A stretch of DNA of 64,000 nt from Syntrophotalea acetylenivorans. GTDB taxonomy: Bacteria; Desulfobacterota; Desulfuromonadia; Desulfuromonadales; Syntrophotaleaceae. Location of the stretch: assembly GCF_001887775.1 (NCBI RefSeq), contig NZ_CP015519.1, positions 2,666,001-2,730,000 of the forward strand, given 5' to 3'. Both the position numbers and the translations under genes were made by a program. Under the pieces are notes generated by a model. The model was not told the DNA's origin and made no database searches. It saw only the letters and a list, made by a program, of their open reading frames with translations. Positions 25,004 through 31,534 of this stretch are shown here, piece after piece. How positions within the stretch are numbered: position 1 is the stretch's first letter; each line of letters opens with the position of its first letter.

Positions 25004-25465
25004 GTGGGCATAATTAGTGGGTTGGGGGTGTTGGCAGCCGGTTTAGCTTGGATACGATGTCGCCGTAAGCCTAATGCAGCACCTGGCGTTACCTTTGATG
25101 ATAAAACAGATCACTTACAGATAGAGGAGGAGGTCATGGCTGAACGGCCCTATTGCGGTCCTGACGGTAGCCAGATTGTCGACCAGATTGCAGAAGAGTT
25201 AATAGAGGATCCGCAACTTCGCCAGCGCTGGATCGAATTTGACCAGCAGTTTCTTGAGCAGTGTGTCATGGGGGGGGGACAGGGTCTGGTCTTTAATCGT
25301 GAAGGCGTTATCGCTCTTGGTACAGTCGATGAGGACCTGCTGCGTTTGGGTATAAAAATTTATAATGCGGCGAGCCGAGAGGCGGTGCGCCAGCGTTCGA
25401 CCCGCTATCGAGTTCTTAACCTGCTGGCCATGATCCATCATATGGCATTGCGAGCCTGTCAGTAA
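25004..25465 (+). CDS. Hypothetical protein with optional N-terminal membrane anchor
   Basis: 153 residues from a GTG at 25004 preceded by TTAGGAGAC. The first 18 residues (MGIISGLGVLAAGLAWIR) form one hydrophobic helix followed by Arg/Lys, a likely inner-membrane anchor. The rest is soluble and helical, with no recognised domain (IVDQIAEELIEDPQLRQRW, LLNLLAMIHHMAL). An internal ATG at 25136 has an even stronger ribosome site, GAGGAGGAGG, and would give a 109-residue soluble form. A very stable terminator follows. Confidence 0.65.
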   Translation: MGIISGLGVLAAGLAWIRCRRKPNAAPGVTFDDKTDHLQIEEEVMAERPYCGPDGSQIVDQIAEELIEDPQLRQRWIEFDQQFLEQCVMGGGQGLVFNREGVIALGTVDEDLLRLGIKIYNAASREAVRQRSTRYRVLNLLAMIHHMALRACQ

Positions 25466-25552
25466 TTACAGGCTTCCGATCTTTCCCGTTTAGTCCTTCT
25501 TGCACCTGCTCACTCAGTAAATCCCCAGCGATCACACTGTGAAAACAAACAG

Positions 25553-25601
25553 AGTCCGGAAGTAACACACCAGTTTAGTGTGTTACTTCCGGACTTTTTT
25601 T
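25553..25601 (+). terminator. Very strong rho-independent terminator
   Basis: Perfect 18-bp stem (AGTCCGGAAGTAACACAC and its complement) around a 7-base loop, followed by a run of T. It closes the preceding transcription unit before the cys operon. Confidence 0.92.
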
Positions 25602-25733
25602 GTGTCTATACTTTCTGCGGTTCAAATAAAGGCAAGCATAGTAAAGCTAAAAATATTAGCTAGTTGCGTTACTTTCTTTTAAAAGCACGGTTATCTGCCG
25701 TGGAAACGCAGGGGCTTTTCTGTGATTTTATTC

Positions 25734-25763
25734 TTGACAGAATCCGTGTGTATAAAATAGGAT
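25734..25763 (+). promoter_or_regulatory. Sigma70-type promoter of the sulfate assimilation operon
   Basis: -35 TTGACA (25734-25739), 18-base spacer, -10 TAGGAT (25758-25763), about 46 bases before the DUF2061 start. The 130 bases upstream are AT-rich and hold a small palindrome GCTAAaaataTTAGC near 25649, a possible regulator site. Confidence 0.65.
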
Positions 25764-25808
25764 CCTTTGGAAATAAACAAGTAAAACGATGTGGTTTAGG
25801 AGTGAGCG

Positions 25809-26033
25809 ATGGAGTCGACACGGCGCAGTATTGTTAAAGCACTTTCCTGGAGGGTGCTGGCTACGGCCATTACCACGGGCCTTATTTATGTCGTTACCGG
25901 CGAGGGCGAGTTTGCCGCCAGTATCGGTTTGGCGGATACCCTGTGCAAGTTGTTCATCTACTTTGGCCACGAGCGGATATGGAACCGCATCCCCTTCGGC
26001 CGACCGGAGCGGGAACCGGAATATTTCATCTGA
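25809..26033 (+). CDS. DUF2061 small membrane protein
   Basis: A 74-residue protein. Two hydrophobic stretches (VLATAITTGLIYVV and ASIGLADTLCKLFIYF) flank a short turn, and it ends with the family's HERIWNRIPFG signature. DUF2061 proteins often lie at the head of sulfate assimilation operons; their role is not known to me. The ribosome site TTTAGGAG precedes the ATG. Confidence 0.88.
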   Translation: MESTRRSIVKALSWRVLATAITTGLIYVVTGEGEFAASIGLADTLCKLFIYFGHERIWNRIPFGRPEREPEYFI

Positions 26034-26049
26034 CCTGACGGAGGAAAAA

Positions 26050-26760
26050 ATGTCTCAACCCTCGCAACAAACAGCAAGCTTGCCGCAATTGGCGGCTGAT
26101 GCCCAAGCGGAGCAGATCCTCGCTGCGGGTATCGCTGCCGCCACCGGTCCCGTGACCCTGGCCTGTTCCTTCAGTGTCGAGGACGTAGTGCTTATCGATA
26201 TCCTGCATAAAGTGGCTCGGGAAGTGAGGGTGTTTGCCCTCGATACCGGTCGTCTTAACGAAGAAACCTACGAGGTGGCCGAGGCACTGCTTGAACGCTA
26301 TGCATTGAGCATCGACTGGTATTTTCCAGAGCGCCAGGCGGTGGAACAGCTGGAACGGGAGAAGGGACTTTTTTCCTTCCGTGCCAGTCTCGACAATCGT
26401 CACGAGTGCTGCCGTATTCGCAAGGTCGAGCCCTTGCGTCGCGCCTTGAGCGGCAAAGGAGGGTGGATCACAGGCCTGCGCCGAGCGCAGAGCGTAACCC
26501 GCACCGAGCTTGCGTCCATCGAGGTCGACCAGGCAAACGGTGGCCTGCTGAAGATCAACCCGTTGCTCAACTGGAGTGACGAGCAGGTCTGGGACTATGC
26601 CAAAGAGCACCGCCTGCCGGTCAATCGCCTGCATCGTCAGGGCTATCCTTCCATCGGCTGCGCTCCCTGTACCCGGCCAGTTCGGGAAGGGGAGCATCCC
26701 CGCGCGGGACGCTGGTGGTGGGAGAATCCGGAACATAAAGAGTGCGGCCTCCACCGATAG
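26050..26760 (+). CDS. cysH: Assimilatory APS reductase (CysH, 4Fe-4S type)
   Basis: A 236-residue reductase of the CysH family. It carries the two cysteine pairs that bind a 4Fe-4S cluster in APS-specific enzymes: Cys120-Cys121 in HECCRIRKVEPL and Cys204/Cys207 in SIGCAPCTRP. The catalytic cysteine is in the C-terminal KECGLH. PAPS reductases of the E. coli type lack the first pairs. It should reduce adenylylsulfate to sulfite, with thioredoxin as donor. The start at 26050 follows GAGGAAA; longer readings cover the DUF2061 gene. Confidence 0.93.
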   Translation: MSQPSQQTASLPQLAADAQAEQILAAGIAAATGPVTLACSFSVEDVVLIDILHKVAREVRVFALDTGRLNEETYEVAEALLERYALSIDWYFPERQAVEQLEREKGLFSFRASLDNRHECCRIRKVEPLRRALSGKGGWITGLRRAQSVTRTELASIEVDQANGGLLKINPLLNWSDEQVWDYAKEHRLPVNRLHRQGYPSIGCAPCTRPVREGEHPRAGRWWWENPEHKECGLHR

Positions 26761-26766
26761 GGGTTG

Positions 26767-26886
26767 GCGCTTCGCCTTTTGCCCGATGCCGGCGTTGGCT
26801 GCGTCGCTCGCATCCTCGACGTAGCTTTCGCTACGCCTGCGGTGCTTGCTTCTTGCCGCCTTGGCCTCGAGCAAAAATCGAAGCGC
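26767..26886. repeat. 120-bp element with terminal inverted repeats inside the cys operon
   Basis: The left end GCGCTTCGccTTTTGC and the right end, complement of GCGCTTCGatTTTTGC, match at 14 of 16 bases. The centre folds as GTAGC-TTTC-GCTAC (26821-26834). It fills the space between cysH and cysD. In size and ends it resembles the 126-bp family (8142), but the interior differs. Confidence 0.65.
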
Positions 26887-26939
26887 TGGTAGTGGGTTGC
26901 TAAATAAGGACCAAGAACAATTACTAGATGGAGAAGATC

Positions 26940-27833
26940 ATGACTCACCTGGAACAGTTGGAAGCGGAAAGTATCCACATCATTCGCGAAGTCGCAGCCG
27001 AATTCGAGAATCCGGTAATGCTCTATTCGGTGGGCAAGGATTCGGCGGTCATGCTGCACCTGGCACGCAAGGCCTTCTACCCGGCCCGGCCGCCTTTTCC
27101 GCTGATGCATGTGGATACCACCTGGAAGTTCCGGGAGATGATCGAATTTCGCGACCGCATCGCGGCCGAATATGGTTTTGATCTTCTGGTTCACGTCAAC
27201 CAGGAAGGGGTGGATCAGGGAATCGATCCCTTTGTTCACGGCTCGGCGGTGCATACTGACGTGATGAAAACCGAGGGTCTCAAACAGGCTCTCGATAAGT
27301 ACAAATTCGATGCGGCATTCGGCGGCGCCCGGCGGGACGAAGAGAAGTCCAGGGCCAAGGAGCGGATTTTTTCCTTTCGCACCGCCAGCCACCGCTGGGA
27401 TCCGAAGAACCAACGCCCCGAGTTGTGGAATGTTTACAACGCCCGGGTTCAGCCCGGCGAGAGCATTCGGGCCTTTCCGCTCTCCAATTGGACCGAGCTC
27501 GACGTGTGGCAGTATATCCACCTGGAAAATATTCCGATCGTGCCCCTCTATCTGGCCAAAGAGCGGCCGGTCGTGGAGCGAGATGGAATGCTGATATTGG
27601 TAGACGATGATCGCCTCAAGTTGCACCCCGGCGAGCAGGTACAGACAAAGTCGGTTCGCTTTCGCACTCTCGGCTGTTACCCCTTGACCGGGGCGGTGGA
27701 ATCGACGGCTGCCACCCTGCCGGAAGTCATTCAGGAGATGCTTCTGACCCGCACTTCGGAGCGGCAGGGCCGAGTCATCGATCATGATCAGAGTGGATCC
27801 ATGGAGAAAAAGAAGCAGGAGGGATATTTCTAA
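26940..27833 (+). CDS. cysD: Sulfate adenylyltransferase subunit 2
   Basis: A 297-residue ATP sulfurylase subunit of the PAPS-reductase-like (PP-loop) fold, which adenylates sulfate with CysN. The PP-loop is [19 protein letters not shown] near residue 30, and later family motifs are [18 protein letters not shown] and [12 protein letters not shown]. The ATG at 26940 is favoured because GGAGAAG precedes it; an ATG at 26928 overlaps that site. It overlaps cysN by one base. Confidence 0.96.
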
Positions 27834-29605
27834 TGGCACATCAATCGGAACTTATAGCTGAAGATATTCATGCCTACCTGAAAAGTCAGGAAGAGAAGGG
27901 GTTGCTGCGTTTCATCACCTGCGGCAGTGTTGACGACGGCAAGAGTACCCTTATTGGTCGCTTGCTTTGGGATTCAAAGATGGTTTTCGAGGATCAGTTG
28001 GCTGCTTTGAGCGCCGACAGTAAGCGGGTCGGCACCCAGGGAGAGAATATCGATTATGCCCTGTTGCTCGACGGGCTTCAGGCCGAGCGGGAGCAGGGTA
28101 TCACCATCGATGTGGCTTACCGCTACTTTTCCACCGACAAGCGTAAATTTATCGTTGCCGATACTCCCGGTCATGAACAATACACCCGCAATATGGTCAC
28201 CGGTGCCTCGACGGCTCAGGTCGCGGTGATCCTGATCGATGCCCGCAAGGGCATTTTGACCCAGACCCGGCGCCACAGTTACCTGGTTTCTCTGGTCGGC
28301 ATCCGTAGGGTGGTGCTGGCGGTCAATAAAATGGATCTGGTCGATTACAGCGCGGAACGTTTCGAGGCCATCCGCGAGGAATACCAGCGTTTCGCCTCCG
28401 GGCTGGGTTTCGAAGATATTACCGCAATCCCGATTTCGGCTCTGGAGGGGGATAATGTGCTGCACGTTAGTGAGCGGACCCCTTGGTACGAAGGGCCGGG
28501 TTTGCTGGAGCATTTGGAGTCGGTACAAATCGAAGATTGCGCAGTCAATCGACCCTTTCGCCTGCCGGTACAGTGGGTCAATCGACCTGATCTGGATTTT
28601 CGCGGGTTTTGCGGAACCATCGTCTCCGGTACGATTCGTCCGGGCGATCCGGTGGTGGTGAGCAGTTCCGGTCAGACCAGCCGCGTGGCGCGCATTGTCA
28701 CGCTGGGTGGGGACTTGCCGCAGGCCGTCGCAGGCCAGGCAGTGACCCTGACCTTAACTGATGAGATAGATATCAGTCGCGGCGATTTACTGGCTGCTCC
28801 CGGGCAGCGACCGGCTCAAAGCGATCAACTCGAAGCCCATCTGGCCTGGCTGCACGAACAGCCTCTGGCTCCCGGTCGTAGCTATTTGCTCAAAACCGCA
28901 GCGGGCACCGCTCCCGCCCAGGTGCGGCAGATCAAGCACAAGATCGATGTCAATACGCTGCAGCAACTCTCTGCCGATGCTTTGGAACTCAACGAAGTGG
29001 GTTTGTGTCAGATCACGGTGAGCAAAGACATCGCCTTTGATCCTTATCGCGACAACGACGGCACGGGCAGTTTTATCCTCATCGATCGTCTGAGTAACGC
29101 AACGGTGGCCGCCGGAATGATTCACCGGGCTTTGTCGAAATCCACTACTGAGAACGGAAGGTTTCAGCCGTTGGGTAAGGAAGCTCGAGCGGCTCTTAAA
29201 GGCCAGCAACCCAAGGTGGTATGGTTTAGCGGTCCCCTTGATGAGTCCGTCTCCGAGTTGCCGCAACAGCTGGAGAGCAGACTGCATAGCCTGGGACGTC
29301 ATACCTGCCTTCTCGATGGAGAAAAACTGAGGGACACTCTTGGTTGTGATCTGGACGACCAGGCCCATCTGCAACGGGTTGCGGAGGTTGCCCGGTTGAT
29401 GACTGAGGCAGGCCTGATTGTTCTGGTGGTTGCCGCTGCACCACCAAGTCTGGTTGAAGGTTTAAACGGTGATCAGTTTGCTGGCGGAGAGTTGTTGCAT
29501 ATCTACCCCTGTGCCAGGGAACAGGACGATGATGCGGTTATTAAGGACCATGTTTTCCCTCTGGGAGAACAAGTGGAGAGACTGCTGGAAAGGATAGCTG
29601 CCTAA
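27833..29605 (+). CDS. cysN: Sulfate adenylyltransferase subunit 1 with degenerate APS-kinase-like tail
   Basis: A 590-residue protein. Residues 1 to about 440 are the EF-Tu-like GTPase that drives sulfate adenylation: [15 protein letters not shown] near 32-46, [12 protein letters not shown] and NKMDL are all present. Residues 461 to 590 align by eye with APS kinase (CysC): KVVWFSG, then [20 protein letters not shown] and [18 protein letters not shown]. The P-loop expected as GLSGSGKST after residue 466 reads GPLDESVSE, so nucleotide binding is almost surely lost. This fits the APS-specific CysH next door, which needs no PAPS. Confidence 0.93.
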
Positions 29606-29772
29606 GGAAGCCGATTGATTGACATTGCAGTCTTTAACGGTTAACAGGTGTGCGAAGGGGCCGATATGTTGACCTTTGCTGATCCAAAGAGCATAGTGGT
29701 GGTTGCTGGTCAGGTGAAAACTCTCGCGCCAGCTGCTTTTTGGCTATGTATACTTATGCAAGGATTTGTTTT

Positions 29773-31065
29773 ATGAATCACTCCATCGATTATCGAACTC
29801 TCAAGATAAATGGTATTTATCAGTCAAACGCCGCCGGCGATCTGATGTTGAGGATCAAGCTGCCGGCCGGTTTACTCTCGGCTGTGCAGGCTACGGTTGT
29901 GGCCGATCTTGCTGAAGAATTCAGTGGCGAAACGTTGCATCTGACCTGTCGTGGCAATATAGAACTGCACGGCTTGCGTGGCGAAAATATTGCGCAGGTA
30001 TTCCGACGCCTGCAGGCCGTCGGCCTGACCAGCCGGGGCGCCTGTGGTGGTGCAGTGCGGGCGGTAGCCTGCAGTACAGATGGCGGCAATTTCGACCGTA
30101 TTCAAATGCTGGTGGAGCGCTTGCATCGGTATTTTACCGGCAATCCCCATTTTGAAGGCCTGCCGAAAAAATTCAAGATGGCGGTAGAAAACGGATACCA
30201 GGGGGCTCGCCATCTCTGTCAGGATTTGGCGCTCGTTTATCTCGGCCGGGAAGGAGATCGGGAATTATGTGATCTGTGGGTGGCCGGCGGCCTCGGTCGT
30301 CAGCCGCAGGAGGCCTTCCTGTTGGCGAATCGAGTGCCGATAGAGCGATTGCTGCCCATGGTTGAAGGGGTAATCCGCGTCTATCAGCAGCATGCATCGG
30401 CCGGCAAGCGCCTCAAGCATTTGTTGGCAGAGATCGGCGAACAGGAGTTTCGTTCTCTGTTGTCCAAAGAAACCACCGGCACGGCGCCTCTGCCGCTGGC
30501 CACTCCCCTCGACGATCAGTTCGGAGTATCTATCGCGCCGGGCACCAATGGTTGGGTTGAGCTGCCGGCCCCGGGGGCACAGTTGGCGAGTGGCGATTTA
30601 CGCAAGGTCGCGGCCATCGCTGATGCGTCAGGCGACGGTTTTCTGGCAATCAGCCGCGAACAAAACCTGCTGGTTTCCCTCGGCGCTGGTGTCGATGAAC
30701 CGAGGTTGCGCACCGCTCTGCAACAGCTCGGGCTGCCCTCAGACGAAGCGTTTCTGCGGTGCCGGGTCTGTCCCGGTAGCCACGACTGTCCCAAGGGGTT
30801 GGTGGCGACCCGTGATCTGCTCGGCCAAATTGAAAAAGTTTTGGGAACGCAAAGTCGGGCGCAAAGCTGGGCCATCTCCGGTTGCCCCAACGGCTGCTCA
30901 CAGCCGCAACTGGCCGACTATGGGATTGTTGGCACTAAAAAGGCGACGGAGAAGCAGGAAGCCCGTTATGATCTGCTGCGCCGGGATGGCGAGGGGTTTG
31001 GTCAACCGCTGCACATCGGGCTGAGCGAAGCTGAGTTGCTGGTGCGGCTTGCCGAGCTGGGCTGA
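29773..31065 (+). CDS. Siroheme-dependent sulfite/nitrite reductase hemoprotein
   Basis: A 430-residue protein of the nitrite/sulfite reductase family with the ferredoxin-like half-domains (LHLTCRGNIELHGL near residue 60). The cluster and siroheme cysteines lie in CRVCPGSHDCPKG and SGCPNGCSQPQLADYG in the C-terminal part. It is shorter than E. coli CysI (about 570). As the last enzyme of the operon it should reduce sulfite to sulfide. ATG 29773 follows AAGGA. The 167-base gap after cysN holds TTGACA at 29619 but no convincing -10. Confidence 0.88.
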   Translation: MNHSIDYRTLKINGIYQSNAAGDLMLRIKLPAGLLSAVQATVVADLAEEFSGETLHLTCRGNIELHGLRGENIAQVFRRLQAVGLTSRGACGGAVRAVACSTDGGNFDRIQMLVERLHRYFTGNPHFEGLPKKFKMAVENGYQGARHLCQDLALVYLGREGDRELCDLWVAGGLGRQPQEAFLLANRVPIERLLPMVEGVIRVYQQHASAGKRLKHLLAEIGEQEFRSLLSKETTGTAPLPLATPLDDQFGVSIAPGTNGWVELPAPGAQLASGDLRKVAAIADASGDGFLAISREQNLLVSLGAGVDEPRLRTALQQLGLPSDEAFLRCRVCPGSHDCPKGLVATRDLLGQIEKVLGTQSRAQSWAISGCPNGCSQPQLADYGIVGTKKATEKQEARYDLLRRDGEGFGQPLHIGLSEAELLVRLAELG

Positions 31066-31077
31066 GAGGAAATCTGA

Positions 31078-31185
31078 ATGCGGTTGCTTGGGCGATGGTT
31101 TGTAATCAGCTTGTTGCTGTTGTTTGTCCTGAGTGGCTGTGCAAAGAGGCTTTCAGGGCTTGAGTTGGTTGTTCCGTCGCGGTGA
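31078..31185 (+). CDS. Tiny putative lipoprotein
   Basis: 35 codons, preceded by GAGAGGAAATCTG, a good ribosome site. The peptide has Arg residues at the start, a hydrophobic stretch FVISLLLLFVLSGC with an LSGC lipobox, and only about 14 residues after the cysteine. It is either a genuine entericidin-sized lipoprotein or the stump of a longer gene cut by the repeat material that begins just downstream. Confidence 0.5.
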   Translation: MRLLGRWFVISLLLLFVLSGCAKRLSGLELVVPSR

Positions 31186-31255
31186 ATTTTGTCGCAGTAG
31201 GGGGCGGCGCTGTTGCAGTCAGAGAGACAATAGTCAGAAAAATCGCCAATCGATG

Positions 31256-31534
31256 CACCACGAAGTACAAGAAGACCACGAAGTAAACCCAAGCCTCGGG
31301 TTGCAGGTTTGACTCTCTTCGCGGCTTCGCGTGAAACGTGACTTGACCTGTCTTTTGCACATCCGAAGGCGCAAGGAAAACCCTTAGATACATAGCCTCA
31401 CACAACGTCGCGACCACGCCACGAAATCAAAATCGAAATTACCTAATGTATGCATGTCCTATTGTGTTTTCACGTCACGTTTTTTGCGTTGTGGTGTGAG
31501 ACCGCCTTCAGCCGTCTTCGTGTCTTTCGCGGTT
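31256..31534. repeat. Degenerate repeat bounded by CACGAAG-type inverted ends
   Basis: The left end has CACCACGAAGTACAAGAAG followed by ACCACGAAG. The right end has CTTCGTGTCTTTCGCGGTT, the inverse. Between them lie several in-frame stops and no gene. Together with 31186-31255 and 31535-31583 it fills the 455-base gap before the zinc importer. Sequences of this CACGAAG type occur as scattered intergenic repeats in many bacteria. Confidence 0.5.

Follow-up and report, generated by a model that had tools for sequence, protein, structure and literature searches.

The CysN protein encoded in the window (the whole stretch of 64,000 nucleotides from Syntrophotalea acetylenivorans that was analysed) ends in a domain that descends from the APS-kinase fold family, has lost nearly all of the residues with which such kinases bind their ligands, and is kept under purifying selection. 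The same degeneration was found across the order Desulfuromonadales in the CysN tails encoded beside cysH. Our best explanation, to which we give a probability of about 0.55, is that this pseudo-kinase would be kept as an assembly (self-association) or stability module of CysDN. Kinase-dead APS-kinase domains were known before on ATP sulfurylases of another, unrelated type; new here are the CysDN GTPase type as the host, the order-wide occurrence and what appears to be a staged loss. In the mainly open-access literature searched, no title and no opening of an abstract was found to mention a dead CysN kinase tail.

The CysN tail of the window

The cysN gene lies in a cluster with cysH, cysD and a sulfite/nitrite-reductase-like gene. 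The features are as follows, in window positions.

25734..25763, forward strand: promoter-like site ahead of cysH, with 10 of 12 consensus positions matched (consensus scan alone)
26050..26760, forward strand: cysH, APS-type reductase with CC and CxxC pairs (TIGR02055, motif check)
26928..27833, forward strand: cysD, ATP sulfurylase subunit (PF01507, 200 bits)
27833..29605, forward strand: cysN, 590 residues, GTPase body and apparently dead APS-kinase tail (TIGR02034, 663.1 bits, and NF003478, 694.6 bits, both above cut-off)
27833..29131, forward strand: CysN GTPase body, residues 1-433 (PF00009, PF22594; model match to 1zun_B)
29141..29170, forward strand: linker, residues 437-446, predicted to be flexible (pLDDT below 50)
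29168..29602, forward strand: degenerate APS-kinase domain, residues 446-590 (PF01583; fold matches to APS kinases)
29231..29257, forward strand: former P-loop, residues 467-475, GPLDESVSE (sequence, alignment)
29315..29332, forward strand: former LDGDN..R motif, residues 495-500, now DGEKLR (alignment)
29525..29539, forward strand: where the lid is deleted, around residues 565-569 (gap in the alignment with intact CysNC)
29740..31065, forward strand: sulfite/nitrite-reductase-like gene of the same cluster (PF01077, PF03460; possible ATG start at 29773)

CysN is a CysDN GTPase subunit: it scored above the cut-offs of the family profiles, it adjoins cysD, with a one-base overlap of the cysD stop and the cysN start (TAATG), and the model of its body matched the ATP sulfurylase chain 1zun_B of Pseudomonas syringae (Z 46.2, rmsd 2.5, 392 aligned residues). 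A fold search with the full CysN model returned matches to the GTPase body only. In the gap that separates the cysH cluster from the preceding gene, positions 25551-25597 form a 20-pair stem-loop followed by T runs, which is terminator-like on both strands; a search of 25400-31400 gave no Rfam match.

When searched alone, the CysN tail matched the APS_kinase family PF01583 with an E-value of 3.2e-11 and 43.9 bits (cut-off 21.1) over profile positions 2-84 of 152, and the NCBIfam APS-kinase models matched it below their own cut-offs (PRK03846: 1.3e-15, 57.6 bits, cut-off 163). Its nearest relatives by sequence in the PDB were the CysC domain of Mycobacterium tuberculosis CysNC (E-values 2e-6 to 3e-6), followed by other APS kinases. 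An AlphaFold2 model of the tail (pLDDT 86, pTM 0.83) took the APS-kinase fold: the first structural matches were 4fxp and 3uie (Z 17.9, rmsd 2.8-2.9, 144 aligned residues), and the best 30 of the 50 listed entries (Z 12.9-17.9) were all APS kinases, PAPS synthetases or ATP sulfurylases that contain a domain of this kind. Because the tail matches PF01583 and APS kinases lead the structural comparison, its descent from the APS-kinase fold family is solid. The initial annotation had read the last 130 residues of CysN as following the APS-kinase pattern, had proposed a structure prediction, and had named a lack of profile similarity to CysC as the result that would overturn this reading. It was right about the domain and late about its start: the pattern covers about the last 145 residues, since the domain begins some 15 residues earlier, at residue 446 (base 29168).

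The replacement of the P-loop, also noted at the outset, is plain in the alignment: where active enzymes have GLSGSGKST, residues 467-475 read GPLDESVSE, and the Walker A pattern GxxxxGK[ST] of APS kinases is absent. The changes go beyond the P-loop: a lid of about 30 residues is missing, and LDGE stands in place of the LDGD motif. It has been previously reported that ATP and APS are bound in M. tuberculosis CysC by Lys456, Ser458, Asp480, Arg483, Phe492, Arg497, Ser524 (through a main-chain contact), Arg559, Lys562 and Phe576 (PMC4373884). We scored these ten ligand residues in the alignment, with Ser or Thr accepted at 458 and Phe or Tyr at 492 and 576. The window tail (G000) keeps only one of them, the counterpart of Arg483; Arg559, Lys562 and Phe576 (M. 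tuberculosis numbering) belong to the lid, which is gone. It had been suggested that the domain perhaps binds APS and passes it to CysH; because only Arg483 remains and the lid is lost, APS binding at the old site appears unlikely, and binding with hand-over from that site was rejected on the missing ligand residues.

The genome that we searched (one contig, 3,218,469 bases, completeness 99.99) contains a single PF01583 match, the CysN tail, and no second APS kinase by that profile. No match to the sulfotransferase families PF00685 and PF13469 was found in it, and its best score for the phosphatase CysQ was only 98.8 bits against a cut-off of 228.8. PF01507 matched two proteins, CysD and CysH, which leaves CysH as the sole reductase. 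CysH has both cysteine pairs of APS-specific reductases, as originally pointed out, and scored 269.1 bits with TIGR02055 (APS_reductase, cut-off 235.3). It also exceeded the cut-offs of two broader models named phosphoadenylyl-sulfate reductase (NF002537 and TIGR00434) and stayed under that of the PAPS-specific TIGR02057 (159.3 vs 254.2). Since the tail has lost these features, the genome holds no other APS kinase and no CysQ above cut-off, and CysH is of the APS type, the CysN kinase looks dead and PAPS looks unneeded here, to judge from residues and genome searches. Both points agree with the initial annotation, for which an intact separate cysC together with a PAPS-type reductase would have been the counter-evidence; the single PF01583 match and the two PF01507 matches show neither. 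Annotators should be aware that NCBIfam NF004035, whose cut-off CysN exceeds, names the protein bifunctional, and that this name predicts a PAPS synthesis which is not to be expected here.

Tail state across Desulfuromonadales

We searched 136 genomes of the order and fetched 93 CysN loci, leaving out five short CysN fragments (G002 C250, G019 C151, G060 C209, G094 C48 and G107 C452). After the removal of 10 fragmentary or very distant rows (L195-L204), 83 CysN proteins were aligned, and the P-loop was found to be kept in 49 tails and lost in 30, with the tail absent in four (one of these at a contig end). Nine of the 79 tailed rows are cut by contig ends and were excluded from the comparison with cysH linkage, so that 70 were judged. 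In counts that are uncorrected for relatedness, and with the full-site state changing only twice on the tree, ligand residues were lost in all 43 cysH-linked tails, each of which keeps at most 7 of 10, and all ten were present in each of the 27 CysNC proteins from operons without cysH. In counts equally uncorrected for relatedness, CysQ (TIGR01331 above cut-off) was present in 19 of the 29 genomes that have a full-site copy and in 0 of the 41 that have none; five more CysQ genomes are not among the 70 genomes from which a row was kept. The cysteine-pair test for APS-type CysH was passed by 47 of the 51 cysH-bearing loci of the order and failed by L140, L143 (gene split over two ORFs), L172 and L190.

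Intermediate states are also present. Among the 18 cysH-linked tails that keep the P-loop, Lys456, Asp480, Arg483 and Arg559 were each kept in 18/18, and Arg497 and Lys562 in 0/18 and Phe576 in 1/18. Because these tails keep the P-loop yet lost Arg497, Lys562 and Phe576, the alignment suggests that the APS site was lost before the ATP site. With regard to the P-loop itself, parsimony required 6, 6 and 5 changes on body or body plus non-ligand-tail trees and 2 on the tail-only tree. AU tests on 73 rows (six of the 79 were left out as long, distant or recombined) did not reject a single loss on the body tree (p 0.397), and with the body plus non-ligand tail columns (p 0.604) the one-clade tree had the higher likelihood. 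Many independent P-loop losses in the assimilatory lineage were considered, and no number is claimed because one loss is not rejected. Six genomes carry both P-loop-less and full-site copies. In G092, the full-site CysNC L152 and the P-loop-less CysN L185 are sisters in the body tree; because their bodies are sister while their tail states differ, recombination between the two copies is suggested.

One of the distant rows, L195 (G091), bears on the link between tail decay and cysH. This CysN is 38% identical to that of the window and has a tail of its own (PF01583, 40.6 bits) from which P-loop and lid are lost, most simply as a separate event. Its operon encodes a separate intact-looking CysC (207 residues, with GLSGSGKST) and a CysQ above cut-off, and no cysH was found beside it in the fetched stretch. 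A strict rule that only cysH-linked tails decay is thus broken once. Here a dead tail is kept where PAPS is presumably made by another protein. Because L195 keeps a dead tail together with a separate CysC and no cysH was found, the strict tie to APS reductase is broken, which favours some non-catalytic cause for the domain's retention. The same genome has a second distant CysN, L196, which is cysH-linked and interrupted by one TAA inside the match.

The nearest paralogues with a live-looking kinase domain are the CysNC proteins of the sulfation-type operons L155 and L144 of the same order. In the two operons inspected, a membrane APS-kinase-like protein is encoded together with cysD, a full-site cysNC and cysQ. 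Unlike the window CysN, these CysNC proteins have all 10 ligand residues, adjoin CysQ, and have no cysH that we could find. An APS-kinase-like domain with the P-loop GLPASGKK, in which Lys replaces the usual Ser/Thr, was seen in L155 (1384-2232), L144 (2127-2861) and L195 (7409-8170), and these proteins have a putative N-terminal membrane-like segment.

Explanations for the kept domain

We found no domain deletion in this CysN lineage: each of the 30 aligned P-loop-less tails has 119-202 residues, and at least 138 when the very divergent L194 is set aside. Within the order, three cysH-linked CysN proteins (L190-L192) do lack the tail and have 33-38 residues after the body. Decay was uneven within the domain. 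We took 101 columns that are conserved in 30 full-site tails (39 ligand columns and 62 others, treated as independent). In 29 P-loop-less tails, with L194 excluded, ligand columns were retained at 0.11 vs 0.44 for the others (Mann-Whitney p 2e-7), and at 0.21 vs 0.44 when the lid was excluded (p 0.007). Kept positions include, in window numbering, R452, Q458, W464, F465, E481, L484, G488, L494, A526, G527, V530 and L531. Within the genus, three unsaturated pairs gave a tail dN/dS of 0.20-0.27 (with bootstrap limits of 0.12-0.56 and upper limits of 0.33-0.56), and all ten pairs, one of them saturated, gave 0.15-0.27; the CysN body gave 0.05-0.08, and the tail value is three to four times higher. 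These results demonstrate that the tail domain is under purifying selection. The initial suggestion that the kinase part survives as a pseudo-enzyme holds in this sense, with constraint on the tail and its catalytic residues lost.

We propose that the kinase-dead domain would go back to a bifunctional CysNC. An active kinase in the fusion would draw APS off into PAPS, and where APS made by CysDN goes to the APS reductase CysH, the kinase step would be useless or wasteful. The binding machinery would then have been lost within the order, the APS-binding residues first and the P-loop and lid afterwards, and the alpha/beta core, the preceding RAxxKGQ motif, the ExKLHSLGRH element and the C-terminal helix would be kept for a non-catalytic structural role. 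The fold would stay since CysDN would need the domain, most likely for assembly or stability. Points that weigh against an assembly role are the flexible predicted linker, the tail-less L190-L192 and the higher dN/dS of the tail than of the body; CysN of E. coli is tail-less as well. The M. tuberculosis CysC dimer is described as formed by helices alpha2 and alpha3 (PMC4373884). By our own helix matching, alpha2 is moderately and alpha3 poorly kept in the window tail, and therefore the old CysC-type dimer may not form.

The window protein can be compared with several known systems. M. tuberculosis CysNC (CysC domain 4bzp, 4rfv) resembles it in having a CysN GTPase body and a C-terminal APS-kinase domain, but in M. 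tuberculosis the CysC domain works as a kinase and has P-loop, LDGD and lid (PMC4373884), whereas the window tail has lost the first and last and altered the second. Yeast ATP sulfurylase (1j70) resembles it as an assimilatory enzyme that ends in an APS-kinase fold which is no kinase, but it matched the tail model at only Z 9.7 (rmsd 3.7, 120 aligned residues). The yeast host enzyme is of the homo-oligomeric Sat/Met3 type and unrelated to the CysD-CysN GTPase pair; the window protein is no such fungal-type fusion to a Sat-type ATP sulfurylase, its host being CysN, an EF-Tu-like GTPase. In yeast the domain has been given 'no defined function', and the APS-kinase-like domain has been described as part of the stable hexamer (PMC3779200). 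The assembly role that we propose for the window tail is modelled on the yeast domain by analogy. An apparently dead domain on the CysDN type as well suggests that it contributes to sulfate activation in a non-catalytic way, which is easily missed where the kinase works.

A passive relic, that is, a decaying useless domain in which selection acts only on residues that prevent misfolding of the fused protein, would also account for the elevated dN/dS of the tail, for tail lengths that differ (119-202 residues), for the strong variation of tails between genera and for the loss of catalytic residues ahead of others. We consider it rather unlikely. None of the 30 P-loop-less tails has been shortened, though one stop codon would suffice and tail-less CysN exists; the C-terminal helix is still recognisable; and the second, distant CysN lineage represented by L195 has also kept its dead tail.

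The co-occurrence with cysH (degenerate tails in 43/43 linked vs 0/27 unlinked cases) could instead point to a docking or channelling platform on which the dead domain binds CysH or sulfite reductase via another surface and hands over APS. At some non-catalytic positions, P-loop-less tails are indeed less variable than tails with a P-loop (R452 1.00 vs 0.72, G457 0.89 vs 0.54, L528 1.00 vs 0.63). However, the old APS site is lost, L195 retains a dead tail with no cysH found in its operon, and most of the conserved non-catalytic motifs are common to full-site tails in operons without cysH, all of which makes docking doubtful and, in our estimate, improbable.

Regulation by a nucleotide has a precedent in Penicillium chrysogenum, whose ATP sulfurylase has a kinase-dead APS-kinase-like C-terminal domain (PMC3734648). 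Like the CysN tail, this allosteric domain (1i2d, 1m8p) is an APS-kinase-like C-terminus, and 1m8p matched the tail model (Z 13.2, rmsd 3.3, 139 aligned residues). A sensor that binds ATP, ADP or PAPS and regulates the sulfurylase in a similar manner might be imagined for the 18 cysH-linked relatives that keep the P-loop, Lys456 and Arg559 with a changed APS side, where an ATP-binding stage is plausible. In Penicillium, PAPS binds as an inhibitor; in contrast, the window tail is without P-loop, lid and 9/10 ligand residues, and no PAPS maker or other match to the APS-kinase family was found in the genome. We therefore set Penicillium-like PAPS allostery aside as unlikely here, and regard a nucleotide sensor as very improbable. 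That the tail still works as an APS kinase, from a catalytic site that has moved, is hardly credible: it is the sole APS-kinase-family match in the genome, but P-loop and lid are missing, there is no CysQ above cut-off and no match to the two sulfotransferase families, and the reductase is of the APS type.

Returning to a pseudo-kinase that serves CysDN in assembly or stability, a bolder version can be put forward tentatively, as possible but not probable: assimilatory CysN would have undergone a staged conversion, in which APS binding was lost first (the 18 extant examples) and the ATP site later, and the domain would now assemble or regulate CysDN and so commit APS to reduction. If true, this conversion would form a staged, lineage-wide path from enzyme to pseudo-enzyme within a single type of operon. 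The order in any case offers a natural series of states (full site; APS site lost and P-loop kept; nearly all lost) for the passage of a metabolic enzyme to a pseudo-enzyme.

CysN tails beyond the order

To widen the comparison, we drew on 277 searched genomes of the class, with 40 loci chosen from other orders (L205-L244), and on an external set. The latter comprised 77 loci found by tail similarity, and is biased to intact tails; 12 gave no CysN row and were unscored, and the other 65 CysNC rows, which come from other groups, keep 9-10 of 10 ligand residues. Because three of these intact CysNC have a 35-40% identical cysH in their flanks, linkage to cysH is not always followed by decay.

Among the 40 loci of other orders, five encode a CysNC with an intact P-loop, and no cysH was seen beside these. 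The other 35 encode a CysN with a different tail of 104-130 residues, which is accompanied by APS-type cysH in 30 of the 35 loci and reads, for example in L221 and L238, VVDLTxExGxIEF...LGKGNRILFRLRDxxQLEPVA... This tail was considered as a more decayed APS kinase and the idea was rejected, with no Pfam match in two examples, an hhalign probability of 0.1% against the dead tail and a best PDB E-value of 0.41; its look is TusA-like, as an impression. Within Desulfuromonadales, L198 and L199 (G105 and G104) are very distant CysN-like proteins (34-36% identity) that apparently have the same different tail, and because they seem to carry it in this order, it may move between CysN lineages.
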